DNA from: Peredibacter starrii
GTDB taxonomy: Bacteria > Bdellovibrionota > Bacteriovoracia > Bacteriovoracales > Bacteriovoracaceae
Assembly (NCBI RefSeq): GCF_034259205.1
Contig: NZ_CP139487.1
Location: 682,001 to 746,000, forward strand
Length of the DNA stretch: 64,000 nt
Direction: 5' to 3'
The translations under genes were made by a program, and so were the position numbers. Below are positions 27,749 to 49,938 of this stretch, in pieces (position 1 is the first letter of the stretch; every line of letters begins with the position of its first letter). The notes beneath the pieces were generated by a model. The model was not told the origin of the DNA. It made no database searches and was given only the letters and a program-made list of their open reading frames with translations.

Positions 27749-29071
27749 ATGAAAATCAAGAAAACATTACATCAATTCAATAGCGTTTTGGATACCACGA
27801 ATATTGGTAGAGCAGCCAAAAAGAAATTGAAGTATATATTTCAGGATCTTTTACGAGAGAAGCCTTTTTGGTGGAATAAAATCCTCTTGGAGAATCAGAG
27901 AAGAAAATTTTGCTTAGACTCAGGCCACAGAGTTAAAATCGTATTTTTGATACATTTACCCACCTCTTGGACCGCTTTGAAGAGCATTTACGAAGCTTGC
28001 GTCCCAAATGAAAAAATCGATCCTATTTTGGTTTTAACGCCTCGAAGACAAAATCGTTTTACAGATAAATGGGAAGGATTAATTGAAGCGCAAACTTATT
28101 TTGACTGTATTAATATTCCTTATGTAGTCAGCTGCACTAAAGATTATACTGAATGGTTAGATCTAAAAGCACTTAAGCCAGATGTCGTTTTTATACAAAC
28201 TCCCTATGAGGACCAGAGACATCCACTATACAAAATCGGCAAATTAAGTAAGTTTACTAGAGTCTGTTATGTTCCCTATGCCTTTATTTTAACGGCAGGA
28301 ACTTTCGAAAAAGATTTTTATGGCACTTATTTCCATCGAGATTGCTGGCGGATCTTTGCAGAGTCTGAATATCATAAAGGAAAATTTGCTCAGTATTGTG
28401 ATGAGAATCGAATTATTGTCACTGGCTATCCTAAATTTGATGAATATCAGGAACTGAAAAGTAGTGAGATGGAGACATCCTCAAAGACTATTCTTTGGGC
28501 TTCACATTGGACAATTCAGGATGAGCATTTTAACGCATCAACTTTTTTGAAAAATTACAAATATTTTCTCAGGTTCGCTAGAGAGAATGCGCATATAAAG
28601 CTCATCTTTAGACCGCATCCATTCCTGTTTAGGGCCCTCGTTGAGGGTAAGCATTTTACTGAAGAGCAGCTGAATGAATTTATCAAGGAGTGGTCGGATT
28701 TACCAAATACGGAGATTGACAAAAATCCAAATTATTTCGAGGTCTTCGTGAGGACGGATATTCTTGTGACTGATAATGGTTCTTTCTTGGGTGAATATCT
28801 TCTAACAGGAAAACCTATTATTTATACCCATAACTATAAAAGCGATAGTTTCAATTTGAATGATTATGGCGTTCAATTAACCAAATTTCACTATGTCGCA
28901 AGAAACGTGAATCAACTTGAAGAGCTAATCAATGACATATTTTTATGCGGTCATGATTACCTGAAAGAAAAGCGTGTAGAGAATTCAAAAAATCTAATTC
29001 ATTCTTCTGGCGAAAAAGCTGGTGATTTGATTGTGAGGAATATAATTAATGAGTTTTTATCAAAAGCTTGA
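27749..29071 (+). CDS. CDP-glycerol glycerophosphotransferase-like protein
   Basis: A 440-residue protein resembling the teichoic-acid TagB/TagF glycerophosphotransferases (GT-B-like fold). TILWASHWTIQDE, LIFRPHPFLFRA and DILVTDNGSFLGEYLLTGKPIIYTH match the C-terminal catalytic motifs. It likely transfers a phospho-polyol or sugar phosphate to a glycan. It overlaps the next gene by 23 bases, which places it in a four-gene coupled cassette with a HAD phosphatase, a CMP-sugar synthetase and an aldolase. Confidence 0.8.
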   Translation: MKIKKTLHQFNSVLDTTNIGRAAKKKLKYIFQDLLREKPFWWNKILLENQRRKFCLDSGHRVKIVFLIHLPTSWTALKSIYEACVPNEKIDPILVLTPRRQNRFTDKWEGLIEAQTYFDCINIPYVVSCTKDYTEWLDLKALKPDVVFIQTPYEDQRHPLYKIGKLSKFTRVCYVPYAFILTAGTFEKDFYGTYFHRDCWRIFAESEYHKGKFAQYCDENRIIVTGYPKFDEYQELKSSEMETSSKTILWASHWTIQDEHFNASTFLKNYKYFLRFARENAHIKLIFRPHPFLFRALVEGKHFTEEQLNEFIKEWSDLPNTEIDKNPNYFEVFVRTDILVTDNGSFLGEYLLTGKPIIYTHNYKSDSFNLNDYGVQLTKFHYVARNVNQLEELINDIFLCGHDYLKEKRVENSKNLIHSSGEKAGDLIVRNIINEFLSKA

Positions 29072-29717
29072 TCTGAATAGCTATAGTTCTTATATCTTTG
29101 ACTGTGATGGAGTAATTTTTGACTCAAATCAATTAAAATCGGATGCTTTCGTTGACGTCTTGGATTACTTTGGATTCAGCGAAAAAGTAAAGTCAGAATT
29201 TATAAACTACCACCAGGCTAATGGTGGGGTATCTCGGTACGTGAAGTTCAAATACTTAATCACGAATTTATTAAAGCAAGAGTTTGATGAGAACTTATAT
29301 GAGAAACTTCTCATGTTGTATTCTTCTAAGTGCGTCGATTTATATGGAAGAGCCCAGTTTGTTCCAGGAGTGGAAAATTTTATAAAGCATTCTAAATTAC
29401 CTCAATCGGTTGCCTCCGGTAGTGATGAGCAGGAGCTGAATGTGATTTTTAAAGACAGAGGTATTTCTGAGTGCTTTGATCTAATTTTGGGTTCTCCTAA
29501 AACAAAGAGTCAATGTGTGGATAAAATCATGAAAAACTTAAAACAACCGAAGAGAACCGCTTTTTTTGGTGACTCTTACTCCGATTATGCTGCTGCTGCT
29601 GCGGCTGGATGTGATTTTATATTCGTTTCTCAATTTTCAGAGGCGAGAGATAGGATGTTGAGTGTATGCCAGTCTAATAATTGCTTTATTATTGAAAATT
29701 TCGAAGGACTATTGTGA
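29049..29717 (+). CDS. HAD-superfamily phosphatase
   Basis: A 222-residue HAD hydrolase. Motif I is FDCDGVIFDSN (nucleophile Asp19, acid Asp21), motif II SVASGS, motif III K in SPKTKSQCVDKI, motif IV FFGDSYSDY. A helical cap lies between motifs I and II, as in the phosphoglycolate phosphatase group. It probably dephosphorylates a sugar phosphate in the pathway made with its neighbours. Its stop overlaps the GTG of the next gene (GTGA). Confidence 0.85.
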   Translation: MSFYQKLDLNSYSSYIFDCDGVIFDSNQLKSDAFVDVLDYFGFSEKVKSEFINYHQANGGVSRYVKFKYLITNLLKQEFDENLYEKLLMLYSSKCVDLYGRAQFVPGVENFIKHSKLPQSVASGSDEQELNVIFKDRGISECFDLILGSPKTKSQCVDKIMKNLKQPKRTAFFGDSYSDYAAAAAAGCDFIFVSQFSEARDRMLSVCQSNNCFIIENFEGLL

Positions 29718-30385
29718 TTACCGTATTTTTACCATGCCGATCTGGCTCCGAAAGAGTCAAAAATAAAAATATTCGCACTTTTGCTGGAGTTGAAGGGGGG
29801 CTAACCCGAATCAAAATCGAGCAGTTGCTAAAGATTTCTCAAATCCAAAGAATAGTTCTATCCACTAATGACGAAGAGGTTATGAAAATTGCAGAAAGTT
29901 TTAATGACCGAAAAATTCAGATTGATAGAAGACCCCAACATTTAGCTCTCTCTAGTACAAGTACAGATGAACTTATTGACTATGTAGGGAAAATTATCAC
30001 AGAAGGGGATATCTTGTGGACTCATGTAACTTCTCCCTTCGTGTCCGCTGAAACATATTCCAGAGCAATTAAAAAGTATTATGAGGTCACCAATGAAGGG
30101 TATGATTCTTTGATGTCTGTATCAAAGATTCAAACTTTTTTGTGGTCGAGTGAGGGAGCGTTTAATTATGACCCTCTAATTGAGAAATGGCCAAGAACTC
30201 AAACATTAAGACCTTTATATGAGGTTAATAGTGCCTTTTTCATGGCAAATCATTTAACTTATATATCATTAAAAAATCGGATAGGGCAAAAACCCTATCT
30301 GCTTGAAACTAGCAAAATTGAAAATATAGACATAGATTGGGAAGAAGATTTTCAATTTGCTGAACAAGTATGGAGAACAAGATAA
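29714..30385 (+). CDS. CMP-sugar synthetase (NeuA/KdsB-related cytidylyltransferase)
   Basis: A 223-residue nucleotidyltransferase. PCRSGSERVKNKNIRTF is the CTP-binding N-terminal motif of acylneuraminate cytidylyltransferases, with IVLSTNDEEV, RRPQHLALSSTSTDEL and WTHVTSPFV following. The family activates 2-keto acids such as neuraminate or Kdo as CMP-sugars. The start is GTG, overlapping the preceding stop. It differs from the SpsF-like gene at 42351. The substrate is unknown; it is placed directly before an aldolase gene. Confidence 0.85.
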   Translation: MITVFLPCRSGSERVKNKNIRTFAGVEGGLTRIKIEQLLKISQIQRIVLSTNDEEVMKIAESFNDRKIQIDRRPQHLALSSTSTDELIDYVGKIITEGDILWTHVTSPFVSAETYSRAIKKYYEVTNEGYDSLMSVSKIQTFLWSSEGAFNYDPLIEKWPRTQTLRPLYEVNSAFFMANHLTYISLKNRIGQKPYLLETSKIENIDIDWEEDFQFAEQVWRTR

Positions 30386-31950
30386 TGAAGAGAATTAATA
30401 TTTTAGATTGTACATTGCGTGATGGGGGCTATTACACGAATTGGGATTTTGATAATTCGGTGGTGGATGCATATTGTAAGGAGCTAAATGAGCTTCCTGT
30501 TGAATATGTGGAAGTTGGTTATCGAAGTCCTGCAAAGAAAGAATACCTTGGCCGATTTTTTTATCTTCCGAAATTGGTACTGCAAGACTTACGCAAAAAG
30601 CTTCCTAGTAAAAAATTGGTAGTAATGCTTAACCTTAAAGATATTTCAGTTGAGTTATTACCAAGCTTAATTGGAGATCTTAAAGGGCAAGTTGCCATGA
30701 TTCGTATTGTCTCTGCTCCGAGCGAAATCCAAGAGGCTATGAAAATATGTAAGGCCATTAAACTCATGGGGTTTGAGGTTGGCATCAATATGATGTACAT
30801 GTCTAAATGGAGCAATTCGGATGTAGAGAAGATTCAGAATGCTCTCCCTAACTTAAAGGAAGCGGCGGATATCTTATATCTTGTTGATTCATACGGTGGA
30901 GTTACTCCTGAGCAATTCCGGAATATCATCCGGACCCTAAAACCTCTGTGCCCAGTACCTCTGGGATTTCATGGTCATAATAATATAGAATTGGCCCTTG
31001 CAAATGCGATTGTAGGACTTGAAGAAGGATTAGAAAATTTTGATACTACCGTTCTTGGAATGGGACGTGGTGCTGGAAATTTGAAAACTGAATTATTTCT
31101 AATTTACTTAGAAAGCGCTGATGTTTTGAAGTCTTTAAACTTAAATGCCATTGCTCAGATCGTAAATGCTTTTACTCCGCTTCAGCAGCAATACGGTTGG
31201 GGAACGAATGTGCCATACATGATCTCTGGAAGTAAGAATTTACCGCAGAAAGAGGTAATGGATTGGATGGGGATGAAAAGATACGATATCGATAATATCG
31301 TTGTCGCACTCCAGGGCATGGTAGCCAAAAACTCGAATGTACAAATTAAACCGATAGATAATCTTATCAACAAGAGAAGCTTCAAAAAAGCGATCATTAT
31401 CGGCGGTGGACCTTCAGTAAAGTCTCATAACGAAGCTATTTTTGAATATGTTTCAAAAAATCCGGACGCTCTTTTAGTGAGTTCTAGTACTCATTATGCT
31501 GGCGACTGGTTAAAGACAGGCTTAGAACAGGTCATCTGTCTTATGGGTAATGAAGGAAAGAAAATCGACCATCTAGATCAGTTCATGGACACAAAAAACA
31601 TTTCTTTTGTTTTCCCTACGTCTCCAAGGGCCATGGGTCTTTATGTTCCTGAGGGAATTCAGAAAAATTGCTACGAGTTGGATGGTGATTGCTTACTCAA
31701 AGGAACTCCAAGTGATGCTCCTTTATCACTTGCAATGGAGTTGGCGCTGAGATTTAAAGTAAGTGAAATCGAACTAATTGGTTTCGATGGTTATGCTCAT
31801 TTACAGGGTGAGGCTGTCGATTTTGACCTGCATTCTGAAACACAAAAGATTATTAATGCGGCTACCAAGATCGATTCCGTGAAATGGAAGTCTCTTACTC
31901 CAACCCACTATGAAGGTATTAGCACTTCTTCAATTTACAGTTTGTTATAA
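30385..31950 (+). CDS. DRE-TIM aldolase fused to a second, uncharacterised domain
   Basis: A 521-residue protein starting at the TAATG overlap with the previous stop. Residues 1-270 are a DRE-TIM metallolyase barrel like 4-hydroxy-2-oxovalerate aldolase: ILDCTLRDGGYYTNW and the metal-binding GFHGHNNIELA, with GMGRGAGNL. From about residue 330 a different domain begins, KKAIIIGGGPSVKSHNE, and continues with VSSSTHYAGDWLKTG and IELIGFDGYAHL, a Rossmann-like pattern reminiscent of MptE/DUF115-type proteins. I infer that it makes or cleaves a 2-keto acid for the CMP-sugar synthetase. Fusion is unusual. Confidence 0.75.
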   Translation: MKRINILDCTLRDGGYYTNWDFDNSVVDAYCKELNELPVEYVEVGYRSPAKKEYLGRFFYLPKLVLQDLRKKLPSKKLVVMLNLKDISVELLPSLIGDLKGQVAMIRIVSAPSEIQEAMKICKAIKLMGFEVGINMMYMSKWSNSDVEKIQNALPNLKEAADILYLVDSYGGVTPEQFRNIIRTLKPLCPVPLGFHGHNNIELALANAIVGLEEGLENFDTTVLGMGRGAGNLKTELFLIYLESADVLKSLNLNAIAQIVNAFTPLQQQYGWGTNVPYMISGSKNLPQKEVMDWMGMKRYDIDNIVVALQGMVAKNSNVQIKPIDNLINKRSFKKAIIIGGGPSVKSHNEAIFEYVSKNPDALLVSSSTHYAGDWLKTGLEQVICLMGNEGKKIDHLDQFMDTKNISFVFPTSPRAMGLYVPEGIQKNCYELDGDCLLKGTPSDAPLSLAMELALRFKVSEIELIGFDGYAHLQGEAVDFDLHSETQKIINAATKIDSVKWKSLTPTHYEGISTSSIYSLL

Positions 31951-31958
31951 TCTCTATT

Positions 31959-31985
31959 AACTGGGAGACTTTATGTCTCCCAGTT
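31959..31985. terminator. Bidirectional hairpin terminator between aldolase and wzx
   Basis: AACTGGGAGAC (31959-31969) and GTCTCCCAGTT (31975-31985) are perfect 11-base complements with a five-base loop. It lies eight bases after the aldolase stop and covers the last codons of the convergent wzx. The stem is GC-rich in its centre and flanked by T/A-rich sequence, as for an intrinsic terminator. Confidence 0.7.
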
Positions 31986-38121: not shown

Positions 38122-39039
38122 TTTTTGGAGTAAAAGTTAATAATAGTTAGATCTAAACCTTCATCTAAACTGATTTCTGGTTTCCATCCCAGCGATTTGA
38201 TCCTTGAAACATCAAGAAGTTTTCTCATTGTTCCATCAGGTTTTGTGGAATCAAAAAACAGTTCACCTTGGAACTTCATCTTTTTACCAATGATCTTAGC
38301 AACCTCACCAATTTCGATATCTTCACCAGTTCCAACGTTCATGAAGTCAGGAGTATCATTCCCTTGATTCATTACATGGATACATGCTCGGGCCATATCA
38401 TCTACATAAAGAAATTCACGACGAGGTTTACCAGTACCCCAAATTTAAAATGACTTATCACCATTTTTAATGGCCTGATCAAAACGAGCAATAAGACCAG
38501 GGATGACATGTGAATTCGTTAAGTCGAAATTATCATGTTCTCCATAGAGATTGGTTGGCATCACTGAAATCCAGTGAAGTCCATATTGTTTTCTGAAGGA
38601 TTCTGCTGTTTTAAGGCCTGCGATTTTCGCAATGGCATAAGGCTCATTGGTGGGTTCGAGAGGAGAAGTAAGTAGATATTCTTCTTTTAATAGTTGTGGA
38701 GCATTTTTAGGGTAGATGCATGAGCTTCCTAAAAAGAGAAGGTTTTGCGTCTTAACTTTAAAAGCGGCATTGAAGACATTTTGCTGAATTTGAAGATTTT
38801 CAAAAATAAAATCAGCGCGGTAAGTGTTGTTAGCAAGGATGCCTCCAACTTTTGCTGCGGCCAAAAACACGTAGTCAGGGCGGTAATCTTGAAAAAAAGT
38901 TTCAACATTATTCTGGTTTAAGAGGTTAAGCTCAGTGCGGCCAATGGCCTTTACGTTCGTAAAACCTTGCTTCAGAAGATTTCTATGGATGGCTGAACCA
39001 ACCATCCCACGAGCGCCCAGAACAAGAATTTTATCGGTT

Positions 39040-39047
<8 letters not shown>
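38118..39047 (-). pseudogene. fcl: GDP-fucose synthase gene (fcl) with one in-frame stop
   Basis: Reading from the ATG at 39047 gives a full-length Fcl/WcaG: VLGARGMVGSAIHRNLL, LAAAKVGGILANN, FLGSSCIYPK, the catalytic EPYAIAKIAG, PTNLYGEHDNF. At codon 201 a TAA (38447-38445) interrupts it, and the same frame then continues IWGTGKPRREFLYVDD into MARACIHVMNQG up to the stop at 38118. So only one codon is broken, probably AAA or TTA/CAA changed to TAA. Gmd upstream is also dead, so a sequencing error is unlikely to be the whole story. Confidence 0.88.
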
Positions 39048-40121
<1,074 letters not shown>

Positions 40122-40179
40122 TCTAGAATACTAAATCACCATTTGAAGGAAGGTAAACGATTCGATAGATTCTTTATCT

Positions 40180-41058: not shown

Positions 41059-42354
41059 ATGAGCGACGTTGTAATTAAAGTAGAAAATTTATCAAAGCAA
41101 TATCGACTGGGTACAGTCGGTACAGGAACACTTTCTCATGATCTGAATCGTCTGTGGGCCAAAGTAAGAGGGAAGGAAGATCCATATCTAAAAATTGGCG
41201 AATCTAATGATCGCACACTAAAAGGAGATTCTGAATACGTTTGGGCACTTCAAAACATGAACTTCGAAGTTAAACGCGGCGAAATGTTGGGAGTTATTGG
41301 CCGAAATGGTGCTGGTAAATCTACTTTATTAAAAATTCTTTCTCAAATCACAAGACCAACAACTGGTTCTGTAAGCATGAAAGGTAGAGTGGGATCACTT
41401 TTAGAAGTAGGAACAGGTTTTCATCCAGATCTCACGGGAAGAGAAAATATCTATATCAATGGCGCGATTCTAGGGATGCGAAAATGGGAAATAAACAAAC
41501 GCTTGGATGAAATTATAGATTTTGCCGGAGTTGAACGCTATCTCGATACCCCAGTAAAGCGTTATTCCAGCGGTATGAAGGTGCGACTTGGGTTCGCAGT
41601 TGCAGCTCACCTAGAACCAGAAATTTTAATTGTGGATGAAGTACTGGCAGTTGGAGATGCTGAATTTCAAAAGAAATGCTTTGGGAAAATGGAAAAAATC
41701 TCAAAAGAAAACAGTCGCACTATTCTTTTGGTAAGTCATAGTATGGATGCAATTGAAAAAATGGCATCGAGAGTTATCTGCTTGGATAAGGGGATGCTCC
41801 AGTTTGATGGCAACGCTACTGAAGGAATAGATAAGTACCTTGATAAGAAAGAATTAAAGAAATGTCGTGCTGAATTTAATACTTCTACATTTGAAAGATA
41901 TGGCGATCGTAAATTTGGAGAATTGCTTTTTGTCGAGAGTCTAAATTCGAAAAATGAATTGCAGGACAATTTTTTCTTTCAGGATGAAATGATTTTCAAG
42001 GTCGGATTCAAATTAAACAGAAATTTTAACAACCCGGAAATTGGGATTTGTATCAACAATCCCAAACGGGCCAGATTGCATCACTTAGTTTCTCACTGGA
42101 AGCATGACTTTGGAGAAATAAAAGAGGGGTATCACGAGGTTTTAATAAGAGTTCCTAATCTAAAACTTTATCCAGGCACTTATTCAATTAGCGCTTGGAT
42201 GAGATGTTACAAAGCACATTCATCAGATGATTTTATTGAGGATGTATTGGTTTTCAATGTAAGACCAAATTCAAGTCTAAAAGAAGTTAACTTTTCAGAC
42301 TATGCACACTCTGGCGGTGTGTGGGTTGATAATAAATGGGAGTTGCTATCTTGA
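41059..42354 (+). CDS. wzt: ABC exporter ATPase with C-terminal carbohydrate-binding domain
   Basis: A 431-residue protein. Walker A is GRNGAGKST (81-89), the signature YSSGM (169-173) and Walker B ILIVDEV (189-195). Residues about 255-431 form an extra beta-rich domain as in Wzt of E. coli O8/O9a, which recognises a chain-terminating cap on the finished polymer before export. This suggests that the exported glycan carries a terminal modification. The stop is overlapped by the TTG of the next gene. Confidence 0.9.
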   Translation: MSDVVIKVENLSKQYRLGTVGTGTLSHDLNRLWAKVRGKEDPYLKIGESNDRTLKGDSEYVWALQNMNFEVKRGEMLGVIGRNGAGKSTLLKILSQITRPTTGSVSMKGRVGSLLEVGTGFHPDLTGRENIYINGAILGMRKWEINKRLDEIIDFAGVERYLDTPVKRYSSGMKVRLGFAVAAHLEPEILIVDEVLAVGDAEFQKKCFGKMEKISKENSRTILLVSHSMDAIEKMASRVICLDKGMLQFDGNATEGIDKYLDKKELKKCRAEFNTSTFERYGDRKFGELLFVESLNSKNELQDNFFFQDEMIFKVGFKLNRNFNNPEIGICINNPKRARLHHLVSHWKHDFGEIKEGYHEVLIRVPNLKLYPGTYSISAWMRCYKAHSSDDFIEDVLVFNVRPNSSLKEVNFSDYAHSGGVWVDNKWELLS

Positions 42355-43031
42355 ATTACGCAATTATCTATAGTCGCATGAATTCATCGCGACTTCCCGG
42401 TAAAGCTTTGATCGATATTGGAGGGAAACCTCTCCTCCAGAGATGTATTGAGAGAGTTCAAAAAAGTAAATATTTTAAACCGATTATCGCAACTTCATAT
42501 GAAGATAGTGATCTTCCTATTTGTGATTTAGCAAAAGATATTGGGGTCGACGTATTTCGAGGTAGCTTAGAAGATGTTGCATCAAGGACTATAAAATTTC
42601 TAGAATCAACTGCATGTAATTATTTCGCCAGAGTGAATGGGGACTCTCCTTTCGTAGATGGGGAGCTATTGGATCGTGGATTTGAAATTATTAGTACTCA
42701 AGAGATGGACATCATTACGAACATTCATCCAAAAAGATCATTTCCCTATGGGATGAGCGTAGAGATTCTAAAGGCGAATACATTTTTAAATAATGCTCCA
42801 AAATTCAAAGATCTCGAAAGAGAACACATAACTTCGTTCTTTTATTCAGAAATAAGTCAGTTCAAGTATCACAATATTGTTTTTGAGGAGGAAAATCTTA
42901 GTAATGTTTCATTGGTTGTAGATGAGAGAAGTGACCTAGAAAAGATAAATAAACTTCTAAAGTTATACCCATCATTGTTTGATTTATCCTACGATCAAAT
43001 TCTCAATATCTTCAAAAAACATAATAAGTGA
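42351..43031 (+). CDS. SpsF/PseF-like cytidylyltransferase
   Basis: A 226-residue enzyme beginning IIYSRMNSSRLPGKALIDIGGKPLLQR, with NGDSPFVDGELL as the metal-binding region. It belongs to the SpsF/CMP-NeuAc-synthetase-like group that activates nonulosonic acids with CTP. A TTG at 42351, overlapping the wzt stop and preceded by GGGAG, matches the usual family start better than the ATG at 42336. It opens an operon that includes NeuB and a PseG-like gene. Confidence 0.78.
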   Translation: MNYAIIYSRMNSSRLPGKALIDIGGKPLLQRCIERVQKSKYFKPIIATSYEDSDLPICDLAKDIGVDVFRGSLEDVASRTIKFLESTACNYFARVNGDSPFVDGELLDRGFEIISTQEMDIITNIHPKRSFPYGMSVEILKANTFLNNAPKFKDLEREHITSFFYSEISQFKYHNIVFEEENLSNVSLVVDERSDLEKINKLLKLYPSLFDLSYDQILNIFKKHNK

Positions 43032-43038
43032 GCAATGA

Positions 43039-44211
43039 ATGATGAGAATTAAAGAAGCATTTGTATATCCGAGAGAACTATTGTCATTCGTTGTTGCGAA
43101 TTATGACATCGTAATTGCATTCTTTGTTTCTCTTGTTTTAGTACCTTCATGTTTTCTTGTGGGGACTATCGGCTATATTCTTTTGCGAGATATTTTATTT
43201 AGATTATTCGTAATAAGACCTGAGACAAACTTCTTAGGGGATTATGCTTGTTATATAGAAGATGACTCAATATCGAGATGGGTTACTAATGAAAAAATAA
43301 ATTCAGATATCGTGTTTCTTGGTAATTCCCATGTAATGGACGCTATTAATCCATCAGTTGTAGCCTCACTGACTGGGAGAAGTTGTTTTAACTTTTGTTT
43401 TTATTCAATAAATTTCCCTAATTTATTGAGACTTGCTGTGGAAAAAGAAATAGCACCTAAAATCTTAGTCGTTGATATAAGCACTCGCTATTCTATGTAC
43501 GATGATGTTCAGATGGAACGATTAAGGCGTCTTGCAGCTCCGTATGGGAAAAAGAAGCTTCTTTTGCATGGATTTTCTGATGTAGCCTCTGCATTTTTGC
43601 CATCTTTTTTTGTGCCCAAAATGTTTACTCCAATAGTAAACCGCTTAAGCAGTAAAGTTTTTTATGCATTTAAAGATGGAGTTATATCTTGTGGGAGATA
43701 TTCACCCTTTAGGACATTGTTTTCTTATGAATGGAGAGTTCATAAAAAAACTAATTATCGTGAAGTTATTCATAAGGCACCAAAGAAGAAGTTTGAAATT
43801 CGAGAATACGATAAATTGCTTAATAGATGTATTGAAGAAACAAAATTGTACTGTCCTATTGGGTCTGACAAGTATATTAAAAGTTTTTCTAAGATGACAA
43901 AGTACTCATTGTTACTTAAGTCTAAGGAAGTTCGGCTAATATTTCTTCGCCTGCCTTTAGATCCAAGGATGATTGAATTTGAAAACACGTCTTACAATGT
44001 TTTTTTTCAGGATTTTAAAAATTGGTCTCTTAGACATGGTTTTGAATACTTTGATCTAAGTGAGAAAGACCACCTAGATCAGATAGGTGACGTTGTATTT
44101 TATAATGATGGACTACATGTCATAAGTGAGAGCTCGGTTAAAATATCAAAATATATGGCTGAAATTTTGAATTTCAGGGGAGGAAATCTTGATAAATCTA
44201 TACTCAATTAG
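43039..44211 (+). CDS. Membrane-anchored SGNH-like hydrolase/acyltransferase, unassigned
   Basis: A 390-residue protein with one N-terminal membrane segment (IVIAFFVSLVLVPSCFLVGTIGYILL) and a likely periplasmic or cytoplasmic domain. FLGNSHVMDAINPSVVA is SGNH-like (GxSx), and near the C-terminus FYNDGLHVISES supplies a D-x-x-H pair of that fold. Such domains occur in polysaccharide O-acetylation proteins (DltD/AlgX-like). The match is partial, so the exact reaction is open. Its end overlaps the next gene by 23 bases. Confidence 0.6.
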   Translation: MMRIKEAFVYPRELLSFVVANYDIVIAFFVSLVLVPSCFLVGTIGYILLRDILFRLFVIRPETNFLGDYACYIEDDSISRWVTNEKINSDIVFLGNSHVMDAINPSVVASLTGRSCFNFCFYSINFPNLLRLAVEKEIAPKILVVDISTRYSMYDDVQMERLRRLAAPYGKKKLLLHGFSDVASAFLPSFFVPKMFTPIVNRLSSKVFYAFKDGVISCGRYSPFRTLFSYEWRVHKKTNYREVIHKAPKKKFEIREYDKLLNRCIEETKLYCPIGSDKYIKSFSKMTKYSLLLKSKEVRLIFLRLPLDPRMIEFENTSYNVFFQDFKNWSLRHGFEYFDLSEKDHLDQIGDVVFYNDGLHVISESSVKISKYMAEILNFRGGNLDKSILN

Positions 44212-45265
44212 GCCCAAGGGTTTTAACATCGGAAATGATGTAATCTATTTAGGTGTTTGTCATTTTGTGAGACAGGCGTTTAAAGAAAATTTTAACATTA
44301 TTTCTTTGCCTGCAACTAGTAAGTACGAAGCGCATAAAAAATCTGGAATTTCTTCCCAAACTGTTTATGAAGTTAATCAGTTTGGAGATGGTTTAATTGT
44401 TGGTGGCGGTAATCTTTACGAAAATGGCGAATTGGAAGTTAATCCAATCGCTCTTAAAGCTCTCGAAAAGCCAATGATGATTTTCAGTGTTTCTAGAGGT
44501 CGAATTTATAATAAGTCTCTAGAGCTGGTAAATAGAACTGATACAATGCCAGATGACAGGATTTCAATTTTGAATAGTTATTCTGCGATTTCTTTGTCGA
44601 GAGATAAATCAACAAAGCAGTATATTGATAATCTTGGTCACCCAGAAAATATTTTAGGAAGTTGCCCGACTCTTTTTATTAATGAGATTCCACAACATAT
44701 TGTTCCTCTTTTAAATTCTGACAAAACGGATGCCCTTATTTCAATTAGAACTCCGAGCTTGATGAGTATTCCAGTGTCTTATCAGTATAAGTTTAGGGAT
44801 GACCTGCTTCAGATGATTGAGGTTCTTAAAGAGAGTGGTTATAAGAATGTGAAGTTGCTATGCCATGATCACAGAGATATTCCTTTCGCAGCGTCGATAA
44901 CGAACGTTAGTTATGTTTATACTGATGATGTGTATACATATTTATCATTGCTCAGAAATACGAGACTAAATGTTACGTTCCGTCTTCATTCTTTTTTACC
45001 ATGTCTAGCGTACAATGTTCCGGCCATCAAATTTAGTTATGATGAGAGAGCTATGAGCATGATGGATACTATTGGCATGGATCAATGGAACATTAATTAT
45101 GTGAAACAAGATCCAATCGTTGAATTTAAAAATCGAGTTAAGAACATCCAGGAATTAGATACGATTAAAGCTAATCTTAACAAAAATCTTTGGCCTGCAT
45201 TCAGAGAAACAATTATGACTTCGACTAATAAGTTTGCAGAACTTGTTCATGAGAGAAGAGGGTAG
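44189..45265 (+). CDS. Polysaccharide pyruvyl transferase family protein
   Basis: A 358-residue GT-B-like protein. It has the typical GNDVIYLGVCHFVR N-terminus, GLIVGGGNLYENG and RLHSFLPCLAYNVPAIKFSYDERA in the C-terminal half. Members add pyruvate ketals to sugars from PEP, or are diverged glycosyltransferases. The start is TTG with GGAGG five bases before it. It overlaps the preceding gene and lies directly before the NeuB gene. Confidence 0.78.
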   Translation: MINLYSIRPKGFNIGNDVIYLGVCHFVRQAFKENFNIISLPATSKYEAHKKSGISSQTVYEVNQFGDGLIVGGGNLYENGELEVNPIALKALEKPMMIFSVSRGRIYNKSLELVNRTDTMPDDRISILNSYSAISLSRDKSTKQYIDNLGHPENILGSCPTLFINEIPQHIVPLLNSDKTDALISIRTPSLMSIPVSYQYKFRDDLLQMIEVLKESGYKNVKLLCHDHRDIPFAASITNVSYVYTDDVYTYLSLLRNTRLNVTFRLHSFLPCLAYNVPAIKFSYDERAMSMMDTIGMDQWNINYVKQDPIVEFKNRVKNIQELDTIKANLNKNLWPAFRETIMTSTNKFAELVHERRG

Positions 45266-45270
45266 TTTCA

Positions 45271-46269
45271 ATGAAAAAGATTCACATTATTGCTGAAGCT
45301 GGAACAAACCATAATGGAAATCTTCAGAAAGCGATAAATTTGGCAGATATCGCTCAGAAGGCTGGAGCTGACTCTGTAAAGTATCAAATCATTTATCCAT
45401 GGGGATTATATCTCCCAGGAGATTACTGGTACGGACATTACAACATTAGAGACGTAATCAAAATTCGCGAAGAGGGTATGCTTAAAGACGAAGATTACTC
45501 AGTCTTAAATAAGCACTGCCTTTCAAGTGGAATTAGCTTTGCTGCCTCGGTTTTTGATGAAAAAGGCTTAGATTTACTTTTGAAGTTAAACCCTCCTTAT
45601 ATCAAGATTGCCTCTTGTGATCTAAATAATATTAGATTTTTAAGACAGGTCGCTGAGAGGAAAAAGAAAATTGTATTGTCCACGGGGATGTCTAGCTTAC
45701 AAGACATCGAAAAGACGCTCACGGAAATTAGCAAGGAAGGAAACGCTGACATCGTTCTTCTTCATTGTGTTTCTGTTTATCCGGCGAAGTTAAAACAGAC
45801 AAATTTACCTTTTATCTCTGAACTTAAGCACCGCTTCGGTACAGAGATTGGTTTTTCTGATCATACAGGAGACAGTACTGCTTCATGTATTGCTCTTTCT
45901 TTAGGGGCTACGTGGTTTGAAAAGCATTTCACAGAGGATAAAGAGCAAAAGGGCTTTGATCACGCTTACGCATTGGATGAGAATGAATTGAAGGACTACG
46001 TAATGGCTCTTCATGATGCAAATTTTTCTCTATTTGGGGAAAAACCTAAAATTACAGATGAAGAAGCTTACACACGCAGAAGAGCAAGACGTTCAATTTA
46101 TGCTTCTCGCAAAATCTTGAAAGGTGAGATTATTAGAGATGAAGACGTATTAGTTGTAAGACCCGAAGGAAAAATGAATGCAGATGATATTGATCTTGTA
46201 ATTGGATCTAAAGCGACTGTTGATATCGAACAGTATCAAGCTTTTGAGCTAAATCTAGTGAATAGGTAA
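45271..46269 (+). CDS. neuB: NeuB-family nonulosonic acid synthase
   Basis: A 332-residue protein. IIAEAGTNHNGNLQKAINLADIA is the sialic/legionaminic synthase start, CSVYP-type (HCVSVYPAKL), GFSDHTGDS and WFEKHFTEDK follow, and a C-terminal SAF (antifreeze-like) domain begins near residue 270. It condenses PEP with a hexosamine such as ManNAc or a 2,4-diacetamido-trideoxyhexose to give a nonulosonate. Followed by a PseG-like gene, so the substrate is more likely a diacetamido sugar. Confidence 0.88.
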   Translation: MKKIHIIAEAGTNHNGNLQKAINLADIAQKAGADSVKYQIIYPWGLYLPGDYWYGHYNIRDVIKIREEGMLKDEDYSVLNKHCLSSGISFAASVFDEKGLDLLLKLNPPYIKIASCDLNNIRFLRQVAERKKKIVLSTGMSSLQDIEKTLTEISKEGNADIVLLHCVSVYPAKLKQTNLPFISELKHRFGTEIGFSDHTGDSTASCIALSLGATWFEKHFTEDKEQKGFDHAYALDENELKDYVMALHDANFSLFGEKPKITDEEAYTRRRARRSIYASRKILKGEIIRDEDVLVVRPEGKMNADDIDLVIGSKATVDIEQYQAFELNLVNR

Positions 46270-46275
46270 AATGTT

Positions 46276-47280
46276 GTGAATTTACTTTTTCTATGTAAGG
46301 CATCTGAAAAGATTGGACTTGGACATCTTGTTCGAAGTAGATCGCTTGCCCGTTTTTTATCTAAAAAGCCAGGCATTATAGTAGACTTCCATGTGATTGA
46401 ACAAAACTTTGATAGACTATCTGTAGGCGAAAATATTTCGTATTCATTTTTTGCGAATGAATCTGATCACAAGCTTTCGAAAGATTATGATCTCATTTTT
46501 TTAGATATGCTGAATGTGGGGGAAGAATTATTTCGAAATTTAAAACAAAATTCGAAATTAGTACTTCTTTCCCCTGTGTTCAATAAGATAAATGAAGTGG
46601 ATTTCTTTTTTCATCGAACTTCTTATCACCCGTCACTGGCCAGCCTAAGCAATGTTCGCAAGTATGCGGGTTTAGATTATTCTATCATTTCTGACGAATG
46701 CATTAGAATTGCTGAAACTCGATACCGTGAAAACCTTAATACTCTATCTCTCCCTATAGCCATTTCTATGGGTGGAGGAGATGCTAATAATAAGACTTTA
46801 AAACTTTTAAAAAATCTAAAGAATTGCAAAGCACCTGTTACTTTTTGGGTTCTCCTGGGGGAAGGGTACTCCCATTCTTATGATGAGTTAGTCAAAGAAG
46901 TGACCAAGGATACTACTCATGAGGTGATTCTAGTTCGATCTAATAGGCACATGTGGCATGTACTTCAAAACTGCGCCCTCGGGATATTCCCTGGTGGCAT
47001 CACAGTTTATGAGGCGGCTTATGCTGGTTTACCATCAGTGGTAATTGTTGAAGATGATGCCCAGGCTTATTTGGTTGAAGAATTAGTCGAGAAAGGAGTG
47101 TGCTTAACAATTAGTGCATCAGCGGAGAGCTACCCGAAGTCCCTTGTTGAAGTAATTGATGGAATTTTTAAAGATCGTTCAAAACTTCTTAATATGCATG
47201 CTTCATCAGTATGTATCGATGGTCATGGCAAAGAGCGAATCTTCAATCTTATTAATGATTTTGTTAAGGAATCAAGATGA
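46276..47280 (+). CDS. PseG-like UDP-sugar hydrolase
   Basis: A 334-residue GT-B-fold protein. LCKASEKIGLGHLVRSRSLA carries the conserved GxGH (His17, catalytic base in PseG), and GIFPGGITVYEAAYAGLPSVVIVE matches the C-terminal phosphate-binding region. PseG releases the free sugar from UDP-2,4-diacetamido-2,4,6-trideoxy-altropyranose before NeuB-type condensation. The start is GTG. It overlaps hisH by four bases. Confidence 0.8.
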   Translation: MNLLFLCKASEKIGLGHLVRSRSLARFLSKKPGIIVDFHVIEQNFDRLSVGENISYSFFANESDHKLSKDYDLIFLDMLNVGEELFRNLKQNSKLVLLSPVFNKINEVDFFFHRTSYHPSLASLSNVRKYAGLDYSIISDECIRIAETRYRENLNTLSLPIAISMGGGDANNKTLKLLKNLKNCKAPVTFWVLLGEGYSHSYDELVKEVTKDTTHEVILVRSNRHMWHVLQNCALGIFPGGITVYEAAYAGLPSVVIVEDDAQAYLVEELVEKGVCLTISASAESYPKSLVEVIDGIFKDRSKLLNMHASSVCIDGHGKERIFNLINDFVKESR

Positions 47281-47897
47281 AAGAAATTGGCGTCATTGAT
47301 TACGGTAGCGGTAACTTTGGTTCAGTCTGGAATGCCTTAAGCAAATTAGATGTGAAACTTCATAAGGTAAGTAGCTCTGAACAATTGCTTAATTGTAGCC
47401 ATATTGTTCTCCCAGGTGTAGGGGCTTATAGTGCTGCCATGTCTCAATTAAATAAAATGGGAATTGTGGAGGCTCTGTCAGAGGAAGTTCTAAAAAAAGG
47501 AAAGCCGTTTCTTGGTATTTGTGTAGGCATGCAAATCCTTTCCAAAAAAGGATTTGAACACGGAGAACATGAAGGTTTAGGTTGGATTGATAGTGAAGTA
47601 CATAAACTAGATGTTGCTGAATATCCTTTGCCTCATATCGGTTGGAATTCGATTGTTAATGGTCTCGAAGCTTCTCCACTAACAAAGAATTTTGATCAAG
47701 ACGCATCATTTTATTTTGTTCATAGCTACTTTATGAAAATTAAAGACTCAGCTTGCGTGATTGCTGAATCAGTATATTCACAACGGTTCACGTCAATCGT
47801 TTCCAAAAATAATATACATGGAGTTCAATTTCACCCGGAAAAAAGTCAGTTTTATGGATTAAAACTTTTAGAAAACTTCACGGAACTAAAATGCTAA
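47277..47897 (+). CDS. hisH: HisH-like glutamine amidotransferase
   Basis: A 206-residue class I glutaminase. The triad is complete: C82 in GICVGMQ, H186 and E188 in HPEKS. It releases ammonia from glutamine. In polysaccharide loci such HisH copies do not serve histidine synthesis; they supply ammonia with a HisF copy to a WbpG/PseA-type enzyme. It overlaps both neighbours by four and seven bases. Confidence 0.9.
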   Translation: MKEIGVIDYGSGNFGSVWNALSKLDVKLHKVSSSEQLLNCSHIVLPGVGAYSAAMSQLNKMGIVEALSEEVLKKGKPFLGICVGMQILSKKGFEHGEHEGLGWIDSEVHKLDVAEYPLPHIGWNSIVNGLEASPLTKNFDQDASFYFVHSYFMKIKDSACVIAESVYSQRFTSIVSKNNIHGVQFHPEKSQFYGLKLLENFTELKC

Positions 47898-48712
47898 AGA
47901 AGAGAATAATTCCGGTTGTCCTTTTGCGTAATGGGGCCATCGTTCAGAGTCGACTGTTTAAACGATTCCAAGTGCTTGGTGTTCCCTCTGCCGTTGTAAA
48001 ACGTTTAAGTAGCTGGGCATGTGACGAGCTAATTTATTTGGATATATCACCTGGAGGAAGCTATTCATTTGGGCGTGAAGATTTAAATTATCCTGAACTT
48101 TCGGGAATATCTGATGTCATCGAACTCGTTTCTAAAAGTTGTCTTATGCCTTTAACCTTTGGTGGAGGGATTAGAAATATAGAAGATATTAGATTCCGTC
48201 TGTCTCTAGGCGTAGATAAAATAACACTTAATACTGCAGCTGTTGAAAATCCGTCTTTAATAAGTGAAGCATCAAAGCTGTTTGGGTCTCAATGCGTAGT
48301 TGTAAGTGTCGATGCTAAAAAAAATACAGATGGCCGCTATTGCATTCTTAAAGGTGGCAAAGAGTTACAGGACAAATGTCCTGTAAAATGGGCACAAGAA
48401 GTAGAAGCACTAGGCGCAGGGGAAATTCTACTTAATTCCGTCGACCGTGATGGAACCGCATCAGGCTTTGATCTCGAGTTAATCGAACAAGTTGCAAGTA
48501 ATGTAAAAATTCCCGTAATTGCGATTGGTGGAGCAGGTGAATGGTCACATTTCGAAGAAGTACTTCTTCAAACAAAAGCAAGCGCAGTAGCTGCTGCCAA
48601 CATTTTTCAGCACTCCGAAAATAGTGTGTATAATCTTAAAAAATATTTATTTGATAAAGGATTTAATGTTCGAAAGCCCTTAAAGCTTTCTCACTTAAGT
48701 TCGAATTTATAG
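47891..48712 (+). CDS. hisF: HisF-like protein lacking the first catalytic Asp
   Basis: A 273-residue TIM barrel aligned to HisF from its first residue. Asp11 of HisF (in RIIACLDVKDGR) is Leu here (RIIPVVLLRNGA), while the second Asp (here D141, SVDAKK) and LTFGGGIRNIEDI, GGAGEWSHF remain. It is also about 20 residues longer than HisF. IGP cyclase activity is improbable; the barrel would channel ammonia from HisH to the next enzyme. Such HisF copies are known from WbpG-containing O-antigen loci. Confidence 0.86.
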   Translation: MLKKRIIPVVLLRNGAIVQSRLFKRFQVLGVPSAVVKRLSSWACDELIYLDISPGGSYSFGREDLNYPELSGISDVIELVSKSCLMPLTFGGGIRNIEDIRFRLSLGVDKITLNTAAVENPSLISEASKLFGSQCVVVSVDAKKNTDGRYCILKGGKELQDKCPVKWAQEVEALGAGEILLNSVDRDGTASGFDLELIEQVASNVKIPVIAIGGAGEWSHFEEVLLQTKASAVAAANIFQHSENSVYNLKKYLFDKGFNVRKPLKLSHLSSNL

Positions 48713-48723
48713 AGAGAATCAAA

Positions 48724-49938
48724 ATGAACATTATGAAGCGTGACCCTCAAACTATCAATTATTGTAAAAAATGTGTTTATCCTGAAATTTCAGTAAATCT
48801 TGTTTTGGATGATGAAGGTATATGTAGTGCTTGTCGACTCCAAGAAGAGTTTGAGGATTTAAATGTTGATTTTTGGCCCAATAGAGAAAAGAAGTTCGCA
48901 GATCTAGTTAGTTGGGCAAAAGCGAAATCTACCTCTAACTATGATTGTGTTATTCCTGTCAGCGGAGGAAAAGATAGTTATTTTCAAGTTCACAAAGCTT
49001 TGGAGTGGGGGCTTAAGCCACTGTTAGTTACATATCATGGAAATAATTACTTGCCAGAAGGTCAAAGGAATCTAGATCGCATGCGTACAGCACTGGGTGT
49101 TGATCACCTGGTGTTTGGTCCTAGTATAGAGAATTTAAAAAAACTCAATCGATTAGGTATGCGTATGATGGGTGATATGAACTGGCATTGCCATGCAGGG
49201 ATTAAGACTTATCCGATGCATGTCGCAGTGAAATTCAATATTCCACTAGTTATTTGGGGTGAAATCACCTGGTCAATTTCTGGAATGTTCTCTTCTTATG
49301 ACTATGTTCAATATAACAAAAGAACCGTTTTTGAGCATGATATGAGAGGCTTCACAATTAAGGATATGATTAATAATGAGGAAGGATTAACTGAGAAAGA
49401 CCTTGCATGGTTAGTTATGCCTTCAGATGAAGAATTTGAAAAAACCGAAACAAAAGGTATCTATATTGGGAATTTTTTCAAATGGGATCCAAATGAACAT
49501 GCCCATTTTGTAAAAGAGAAATATGGTTTCGAATTTGCTGAAAAGCCGTTTGAGAGGACATATCGAACGATGTCTAATTTAGATGATATGCATGAAAATG
49601 GCATTCATGATTATTTAAAGTTTATCAAATTTGGCTATGGCCGTGGAACTGATCATGCTTCGAAAGATATCCGTTCTGGGTATTTGTCACGTGTAGAAGG
49701 CGTACAAAAAGTTCTTCAATATGATCATGTAAAGCCTACTCGGGATCTTGCGAGATGGTTGGATTATGTTGGAATGACAGAGAAAGAATTTGATGACATA
49801 TGTGACAGTTTTCGTGATCCAAGAGTCTGGTGGATTGAAAATAATCAATGGATGAAGAGAAATGTGGATGGGACTGTTTCTTCCTATGGAAAAGTTCGCA
49901 TACCAAAAGAAAAATATTCTAAATATAAGGTTATTTAA
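48724..49938 (+). CDS. N-acetyl sugar amidotransferase (WbpG/PseA-like)
   Basis: A 404-residue ATP-pyrophosphatase-like protein. CKKCVYPE and GICSACR are zinc-type Cys pairs near the N-terminus, IPVSGGKDSYFQVHKALE is the PP-loop, and LVTYHGNNYLPEGQRNL follows. WbpG/PseA enzymes convert an N-acetyl group to acetamidino with ammonia. Together with HisH and HisF upstream this is a complete amidination set. It overlaps the methyltransferase gene by one base. Confidence 0.88.
   Translation: MNIMKRDPQTINYCKKCVYPEISVNLVLDDEGICSACRLQEEFEDLNVDFWPNREKKFADLVSWAKAKSTSNYDCVIPVSGGKDSYFQVHKALEWGLKPLLVTYHGNNYLPEGQRNLDRMRTALGVDHLVFGPSIENLKKLNRLGMRMMGDMNWHCHAGIKTYPMHVAVKFNIPLVIWGEITWSISGMFSSYDYVQYNKRTVFEHDMRGFTIKDMINNEEGLTEKDLAWLVMPSDEEFEKTETKGIYIGNFFKWDPNEHAHFVKEKYGFEFAEKPFERTYRTMSNLDDMHENGIHDYLKFIKFGYGRGTDHASKDIRSGYLSRVEGVQKVLQYDHVKPTRDLARWLDYVGMTEKEFDDICDSFRDPRVWWIENNQWMKRNVDGTVSSYGKVRIPKEKYSKYKVI

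Follow-up and report, generated by a model that had tools for sequence, protein, structure and literature searches.

Organization of the locus

A stretch of 64,000 nucleotides from the single-contig, 4.15 Mb genome of Peredibacter starrii (positions 682001–746000; hereafter the window, in whose own numbering positions are given) contains a tight operon on the forward strand encoding a HAD phosphatase, a cytidine monophosphate (CMP)-acid synthetase and an aldolase fused to a second domain. The phosphatase (29049–29717; PF13419) belongs to a subfamily specific to this gene cassette, the NeuA/PseF-like synthetase (29714–30385; PF02348, over the cut-off) is read from a GTG start, and the fused aldolase (30370–31950; PF00682, over the cut-off) has 526 residues. 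Upstream lies the gene for a GT-B-like protein of 440 residues (27749–29071; PF04464, 4.4e-10, over the cut-off, the C-terminal half giving the Glyphos_transf match). It overlaps the phosphatase gene by 23 nucleotides, and the overlaps between the phosphatase and synthetase genes and between the synthetase and aldolase genes are 4 and 16 nucleotides, respectively. The operon is closed on the same strand by a hairpin of 11 pairs, 6 of them G-C (31959–31985), which lies directly 3' of the aldolase gene and is the best terminator-like hairpin in the region.

The surrounding 26–60 kb stretch has a guanine-plus-cytosine content of 34–40%, versus 41–44% across most of the first 26 kb of the window, and its sugar-biosynthesis and glycosyltransferase genes resemble those of an O-antigen or exopolysaccharide locus. 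The fused aldolase was found in no other genome of a 144-genome sample of the phylum, which suggests that the cassette was probably acquired in this genome; the nearest relatives, with identities of up to 44%, are found in Bacteroidota.

A conserved gene set in several phyla

With the aldolase as query and as the sole criterion for picking loci, 84,980 species genomes yielded 79 loci. The same fused family is encoded at 78 of these, and the 79th, from Streptomyces, encodes the barrel only; counts out of 79 given below refer to the fused-family loci, window included. Relatives of the fused aldolase occur in Bacteroidota, Balneolota, Pseudomonadota, Campylobacterota and Bacillota. A CMP-synthetase gene stands beside the aldolase gene in 77 of the 79 loci (one of them, L065, recovered on later inspection), the two exceptions being cut by contig ends, and where the two genes adjoin directly the gap is 30 nucleotides or less in 62 of 67 pairs. 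The cassette-specific HAD phosphatase is encoded in at least 56 of the 79 loci, a count taken from six-frame and open-reading-frame-based neighbourhoods, which can overlook short or frameshifted genes. The usual order is aldolase–CMP-synthetase–phosphatase, as opposed to phosphatase–CMP-synthetase–aldolase in the window; hence, the membership of the set is conserved while the gene order varies. Of 395 Bacteroidota genomes drawn independently, 9 had the fused aldolase, at 10 places in all, with a CMP gene within 1.5 kb at eight; the ninth was found on reading further out, and at the tenth (L092) the CMP gene lies three genes on, as read from L042, whose contig has the same length. Distant relatives on Leisingera plasmids (26–28% identity) are likewise encoded in a row with a '3-deoxy-manno-octulosonate cytidylyltransferase' and a HAD protein. 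The association of these genes is far beyond chance.

A first-pass annotation of the window had recognized the four genes, all of which are present on the forward strand, and had made its reading depend on their recurrence in other genomes. The phosphatase, CMP-synthetase and aldolase do recur together; the GT-B-like gene falls outside this group. The annotation had also held that an aldolase stands where a phosphoenolpyruvate (PEP)-dependent synthase would be expected, and this is borne out: neither a NeuB- nor a KdsA-family synthase is encoded in the window cassette, and the NeuB-family genes in the flanks of 11 other loci lie at scattered offsets, adjacent to the cassette only in L033. A further gene, coding for an HpcH/HpaI-type aldolase, was listed as inserted between the fused aldolase and CMP genes in L011, L013, L031, L042, L057, L058 and L126, and is also present in an independently drawn genome, G260. 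The cassette is compact and widespread and has apparently not been described so far. Literature searches on an aldolase with a cytidylyltransferase in polysaccharide loci, on 3DXI and on DUF115 with an aldolase returned no account of it, and the Leptospira rfb papers checked for an aldolase do not mention one.

The aldolase barrel

Residues 1–319 (30370–31326) form a DRE-TIM (HMGL-like) metal-aldolase barrel (PF00682, 5e-29, 101.8 bits against a cut-off of 29; 3dxi_A, 2.3e-98). The predicted structure of the whole protein has a mean predicted local distance difference test (pLDDT) score of 92.3, and its barrel matches 3dxi with a Z score of 42.7 over 295 residues and DmpG (1nvm) with a Z score of 31.2. 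The metal ligands, on whose presence the first-pass reading had also been staked, are conserved: D18 within the motif R17-D-G-G-Y-Y22 (30418–30435) and the two histidines of H201-G-H203 (30970–30978) are invariant in 79 of 79 proteins, as are R17, G19, G20, Y21 and Y22. R233, N140, W277 and Y283 are further marks of this clade.

Y21-Y22 align with His21-Ala22 of DmpG, of which His21 is the catalytic residue. DmpG and the phylum's three DmpG-like proteins keep the histidine of the RDGxH motif, and RDGGY is found in all 79 fused proteins. A review of BphI covers Leu-87, Leu-89 and Tyr-290 only. The protein scores 86 bits against the 4-hydroxy-2-oxovalerate aldolase equivalog TIGR03217, under the cut-off of 286. 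The earlier assignment to the 4-hydroxy-2-oxovalerate type therefore holds for the relationship of the barrels and fails for membership of that functional class.

Barrel-only relatives with the RDGG motif are encoded in natural-product-like loci of Streptomyces, Mesorhizobium and Paraburkholderia, several of them near a HAD gene, which suggests that aldolase and phosphatase are the older pair. Four such loci (L076, L091, L088 and L122), from Streptomyces and from rhizobial or symbiotic plasmids, combine an RDGGY aldolase with HAD and SDR genes, in L088 also with ATP-grasp-like genes, and are possibly unexplored natural-product clusters.

Recurrent exchange of the CMP-synthetase

The CMP-synthetase of the window scores 58 bits against PF02348 (cut-off 22.6) and 61.5 bits against the PseF equivalog TIGR03584, under the cut-off of 205.7; R9, S12, R14, K18, N19 and D206/D208 are conserved in 46 relatives. 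The CMP genes of the cassettes fall into NeuA/PseF-like (40), KdsB-like (29) and a third, PseF-like set (7), and the KdsB-like partners tested reach the cut-off of the NCBI KdsB subfamily. On a quick tree of the aldolase, the three flavours require 21 changes, compared with a mean of 29.4 after shuffling and an equally low number in 1 of 200 shuffles, and for each of the two large groups well-supported branches impose at least 12 changes. The aldolase thus appears to have exchanged one kind of CMP partner for the other, NeuA/PseF-like or KdsB-like, on many occasions. That two unrelated subfamilies have been recruited again and again is the strongest pointer to the product class: the only chemistry they share is that of cytidine triphosphate (CTP) with a 2-keto acid, which points to a CMP-activated 2-keto acid.

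The product does not appear to be 3-deoxy-D-manno-octulosonic acid (Kdo) itself, nor the cassette a Kdo pathway, because the canonical enzymes are encoded elsewhere. Each of the eight KdsB-flavoured genomes inspected has two KdsB homologues and no more, of which the canonical one, encoded elsewhere, passes the TIGR00466 cut-off and the cassette copy falls below it, and KdsA is encoded elsewhere in five of five genomes tested. In the genome of the window, KdsA and a CMP-transferase are encoded side by side at 3.25 Mb. The window also holds a second, PEP-type ulosonate set at 42336–49938, at least 11 kb downstream of the cassette, with its own CMP-transferase-like gene, a NeuB/PseI-family synthase, a PseG-like protein, HisH, WbuZ and WbuX (amidination). 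At another locus (L034:11559–15161), two CMP-synthetases, one NeuA-like and one KdsB-like, are accompanied by two GT29-type genes, as if for two acids.

The C-terminal domain and neighbouring glycosyltransferases

The extra domain of the aldolase, put at about 190 residues in the first-pass annotation, is real and comprises about 207 (residues 320–526; 31327–31947). In sequence, it matches PF01973 (MptE-like) below the cut-off, with 4.6e-7 for the domain and 2.9e-6 for residues 323–473 in a whole-protein scan. The isolated domain reaches 30.2 bits against a gathering threshold of 34.6, and 36 of 61 relatives match at E ≤ 0.1. A sequence search of the PDB returned nothing significant (the best relevant match was CstI, E 0.23), so the assignment rests on the fold; a plasmid search with the domain alone gave no match. 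Because the barrel filled the list in a whole-protein fold search, the domain was modelled alone (mean pLDDT 93.7). In VIA-align, this model matches the flagellin glycosyltransferase Maf (5mu5) with a Z score of 15.5 over 193 residues at a root-mean-square deviation of 3.7, SteA with 11.9, the archaeal HPPK/MptE protein MjHPPK with 11.8, CstII (1ro8) with 10.8 over 178 residues and GT29 enzymes with 8–9, all well above unrelated rows. The domain that had been left without a role is thus predicted to have a Maf/MptE/GT42 fold, an assignment that concerns the fold only.

The central domain of Maf resembles CstII, and one Maf can glycosylate with both N-acetylneuraminic acid (Neu5Ac) and Kdo (PMC11339370). 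The motifs GGG-S, GNEG, PRKMGT, G-DGY, E490-N491 and Y514 are conserved in the C-terminal domain. The domain is present wherever the CMP gene is present, and both are absent from eight of eight barrel-only loci examined, a correlation that favours binding of CMP or the CMP-acid. It is probably a CMP-product-binding or transferase domain. Isopropylmalate synthase is a DRE-TIM enzyme with a C-terminal regulatory domain, and by this analogy we prefer feedback sensing as the role of the domain, with a divergent transferase as the main rival.

Genes near the cassette (TRANSFERASES) code for GT29 enzymes, polysialyltransferase-like PF07388 proteins and MptE-like proteins. GT29 genes occur in 6 of the 79 loci, over the cut-off in all six tested, and in none of 296 background Bacteroidota genomes at that cut-off. 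PF07388 genes occur in 8 loci and in 11 of the 296 background genomes; they are present in 4 of 9 cassette genomes and 7 of 287 others (Fisher p 1.2e-4, approximate as the two genome draws overlap without being identical), and are linked to the cassette in two of the four. Sialyl- and polysialyltransferase-like genes are therefore enriched near the cassette. A CDP-glycerol-transferase-like (GT-B-like) gene stands beside it in only 3 of 79 loci; in L027 and L040 a relative of the window gene directly precedes the aldolase. The proposal of this phosphotransferase-like protein as a possible user of the CMP product does not generalize, and the protein is a candidate local user at best. Elsewhere in the window, on the reverse strand, a gmd-fcl pair looks broken (38445–40170): the GDP-mannose dehydratase is in separate short frames (C-terminal part 39040–39507, middle piece 39533–39733), and the GDP-fucose synthase frame is short, with 200 residues.

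Proposed pathway and alternatives

To our knowledge, bacteria rely on PEP-dependent synthases for their CMP-activated sugar acids (Kdo, sialic, legionaminic and pseudaminic acids). From the gene set, the conserved residues and the folds we infer that a CMP-activated 2-keto-3-deoxy (ulosonic) acid destined for a surface glycan is made by a short route that needs no PEP, a reading that we consider somewhat probable. The barrel would bind a divalent metal, form the pyruvate enolate and condense it with an aldose, probably a phosphorylated one from central metabolism. The HAD phosphatase, whose residues D18, D20, S123, K153, D175 and D179 and cap motif NGG-SRY-K are conserved from Bacteroidota to Alphaproteobacteria and Paenibacillus, would then strip the phosphate, thereby also pulling the reversible aldol step forward and presumably rendering it irreversible. 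Activation of the dephosphorylated acid by the CMP-synthetase would follow, and the glycosyltransferase that uses the product would differ from locus to locus. The most likely ligand of the C-terminal domain is CMP or the CMP-acid, which it would bind as an end-product sensor or a divergent transferase. Judged from the sequences, the cassette very probably yields a CMP-activated 2-keto acid and does so without a PEP synthase of its own; it probably builds a sialic-acid-like unit with a metal-dependent aldolase instead of a PEP-consuming synthase. Our broader proposal is more tentative: that this is an aldolase entry to CMP-ulosonic acids used in several phyla, in which the sialyltransferase-fold domain of the committed enzyme reads or transfers the end product.

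Several observations weigh against the proposed route. The phosphatase is missing altogether in about a quarter of genomes: sought genome-wide in 20 genomes with an apparently HAD-less cassette, it was absent from 19, the twentieth (L063) proving to have it adjoining the aldolase, so the phosphate step is not universal. The position of the catalytic histidine of DmpG is a tyrosine throughout the fused family, and no member of the cassette-aldolase family has a known activity. The HpcH/HpaI pyruvate aldolase, encoded between the fused aldolase and CMP genes in 6 loci and further off in one, is hard to reconcile with the barrel alone making the acid. What survives of the first-pass idea of an aldolase route is the co-occurrence, the metal ligands, the lack of a PEP synthase in the cassette and the constant CMP partner; the GT-B-like user and the aldolase type find no support, and the phosphatase is not universal.

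This additional aldolase, found in G260 as well, is also what speaks for a product that is CMP-activated but with the pyruvate aldol step performed by another enzyme, such as the HpcH/HpaI protein, and the barrel catalysing a different C–C step (with another enolate donor, an aldehyde-supplying retro-aldol reaction or a second chain extension). An active-site motif unlike that of DmpG and the newly conserved R233, N140 and W277 would fit, but D18, H201, H203 and R17 are unchanged and at least 72 of the 79 loci lack a second aldolase in the cluster, and we regard this explanation as rather improbable. A less unlikely, though still doubtful, alternative is glycosyltransferase activity in the C-terminal domain itself, in which case a single polypeptide would make the acid and transfer it after CMP activation by its neighbour. 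The closest fold is that of Maf, a CMP-nonulosonate transferase, followed by CstII, and the surface motifs of the domain are strongly conserved. However, the position aligned with the CstII base His188 is variable and E490, two residues on, is invariant (by eye and profile alignment, uncertain at this identity), and dedicated transferase-like genes adjoin many cassettes.

Two further explanations concern the acid itself. The CMP gene might activate a known acid (Neu5Ac, pseudaminic or legionaminic acid, or Kdo) made elsewhere, the aldolase being an unrelated passenger; KdsA and KdsB are both encoded in the genome, as is, 13 kb downstream, a NeuB-family synthase. Yet each of these sets has its own CMP-transferase, and the joint occurrence of aldolase and CMP gene across phyla in both gene orders strongly disfavours this very unlikely reading. 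The acid might also be a phosphonate, similar to those of Pnt pathways, and DRE-TIM enzymes do occur in phosphonate pathways. Phosphonates are widely activated with CMP (PMC6697681), but no PEP mutase was found when the genome of the window was searched for one, and partners resembling KdsB and sialyltransferases speak for ulosonic acids, which makes a phosphonate scarcely credible.

If the proposed PEP-independent route is correct, it would be a second chemistry for CMP-activated acids, with interchangeable CMP-synthetases and its own phosphatase, and the surface glycans of many Bacteroidota and others would hold acids so far overlooked or wrongly assigned. The structural-genomics orphan 3DXI would gain a function, a new class of stereoselective aldolases would be defined, and the fusion of a sialyltransferase fold with a metabolic enzyme would become accessible to experiment.

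Comparison with known systems

The 4-hydroxy-2-oxovalerate aldolases DmpG/BphI (1nvm) share with the barrel its fold, metal ligands, Arg17 and membership of the pyruvate-aldolase superfamily, but have RDGSH in place of RDGGY and a C-terminal domain of another fold, and the cassette protein misses their equivalog cut-off. BVU_2661 of Bacteroides vulgatus (PDB 3dxi) belongs to the same barrel family, with 49% identity over 295 residues; its entry describes the N-terminal domain of a longer protein, a 'putative aldolase' without assigned function, and a literature search found no paper on it. The C-terminal domain has its fold in common with the Maf flagellin glycosyltransferase (5mu5) and the sialyltransferase CstII (1ro7/1ro8), the differences being its fusion to an aldolase and a Pfam score below gathering.

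With the KdsA-KdsC-KdsB and NeuB-NeuA pathways the cassette shares the CMP-synthetase families (PF02348, KdsB subfamily) and ulosonate-type transferases nearby, whereas it has no PEP-dependent synthase and its hosts retain a separate Kdo pathway. The same logic is seen in the set of 2-keto-3-deoxy-D-glycero-D-galacto-nononic acid (Kdn)-9-phosphate synthase, HAD phosphatase and CMP-Kdn synthetase of Bacteroides thetaiotaomicron, in which a C3 unit is joined to a sugar phosphate, dephosphorylated by the HAD enzyme and activated with CMP (PMC6200933). The synthase of that set is PEP-dependent (PMC6200933), whereas in the cassette described here its place is taken by a DRE-TIM metal aldolase that carries a Maf-fold domain.

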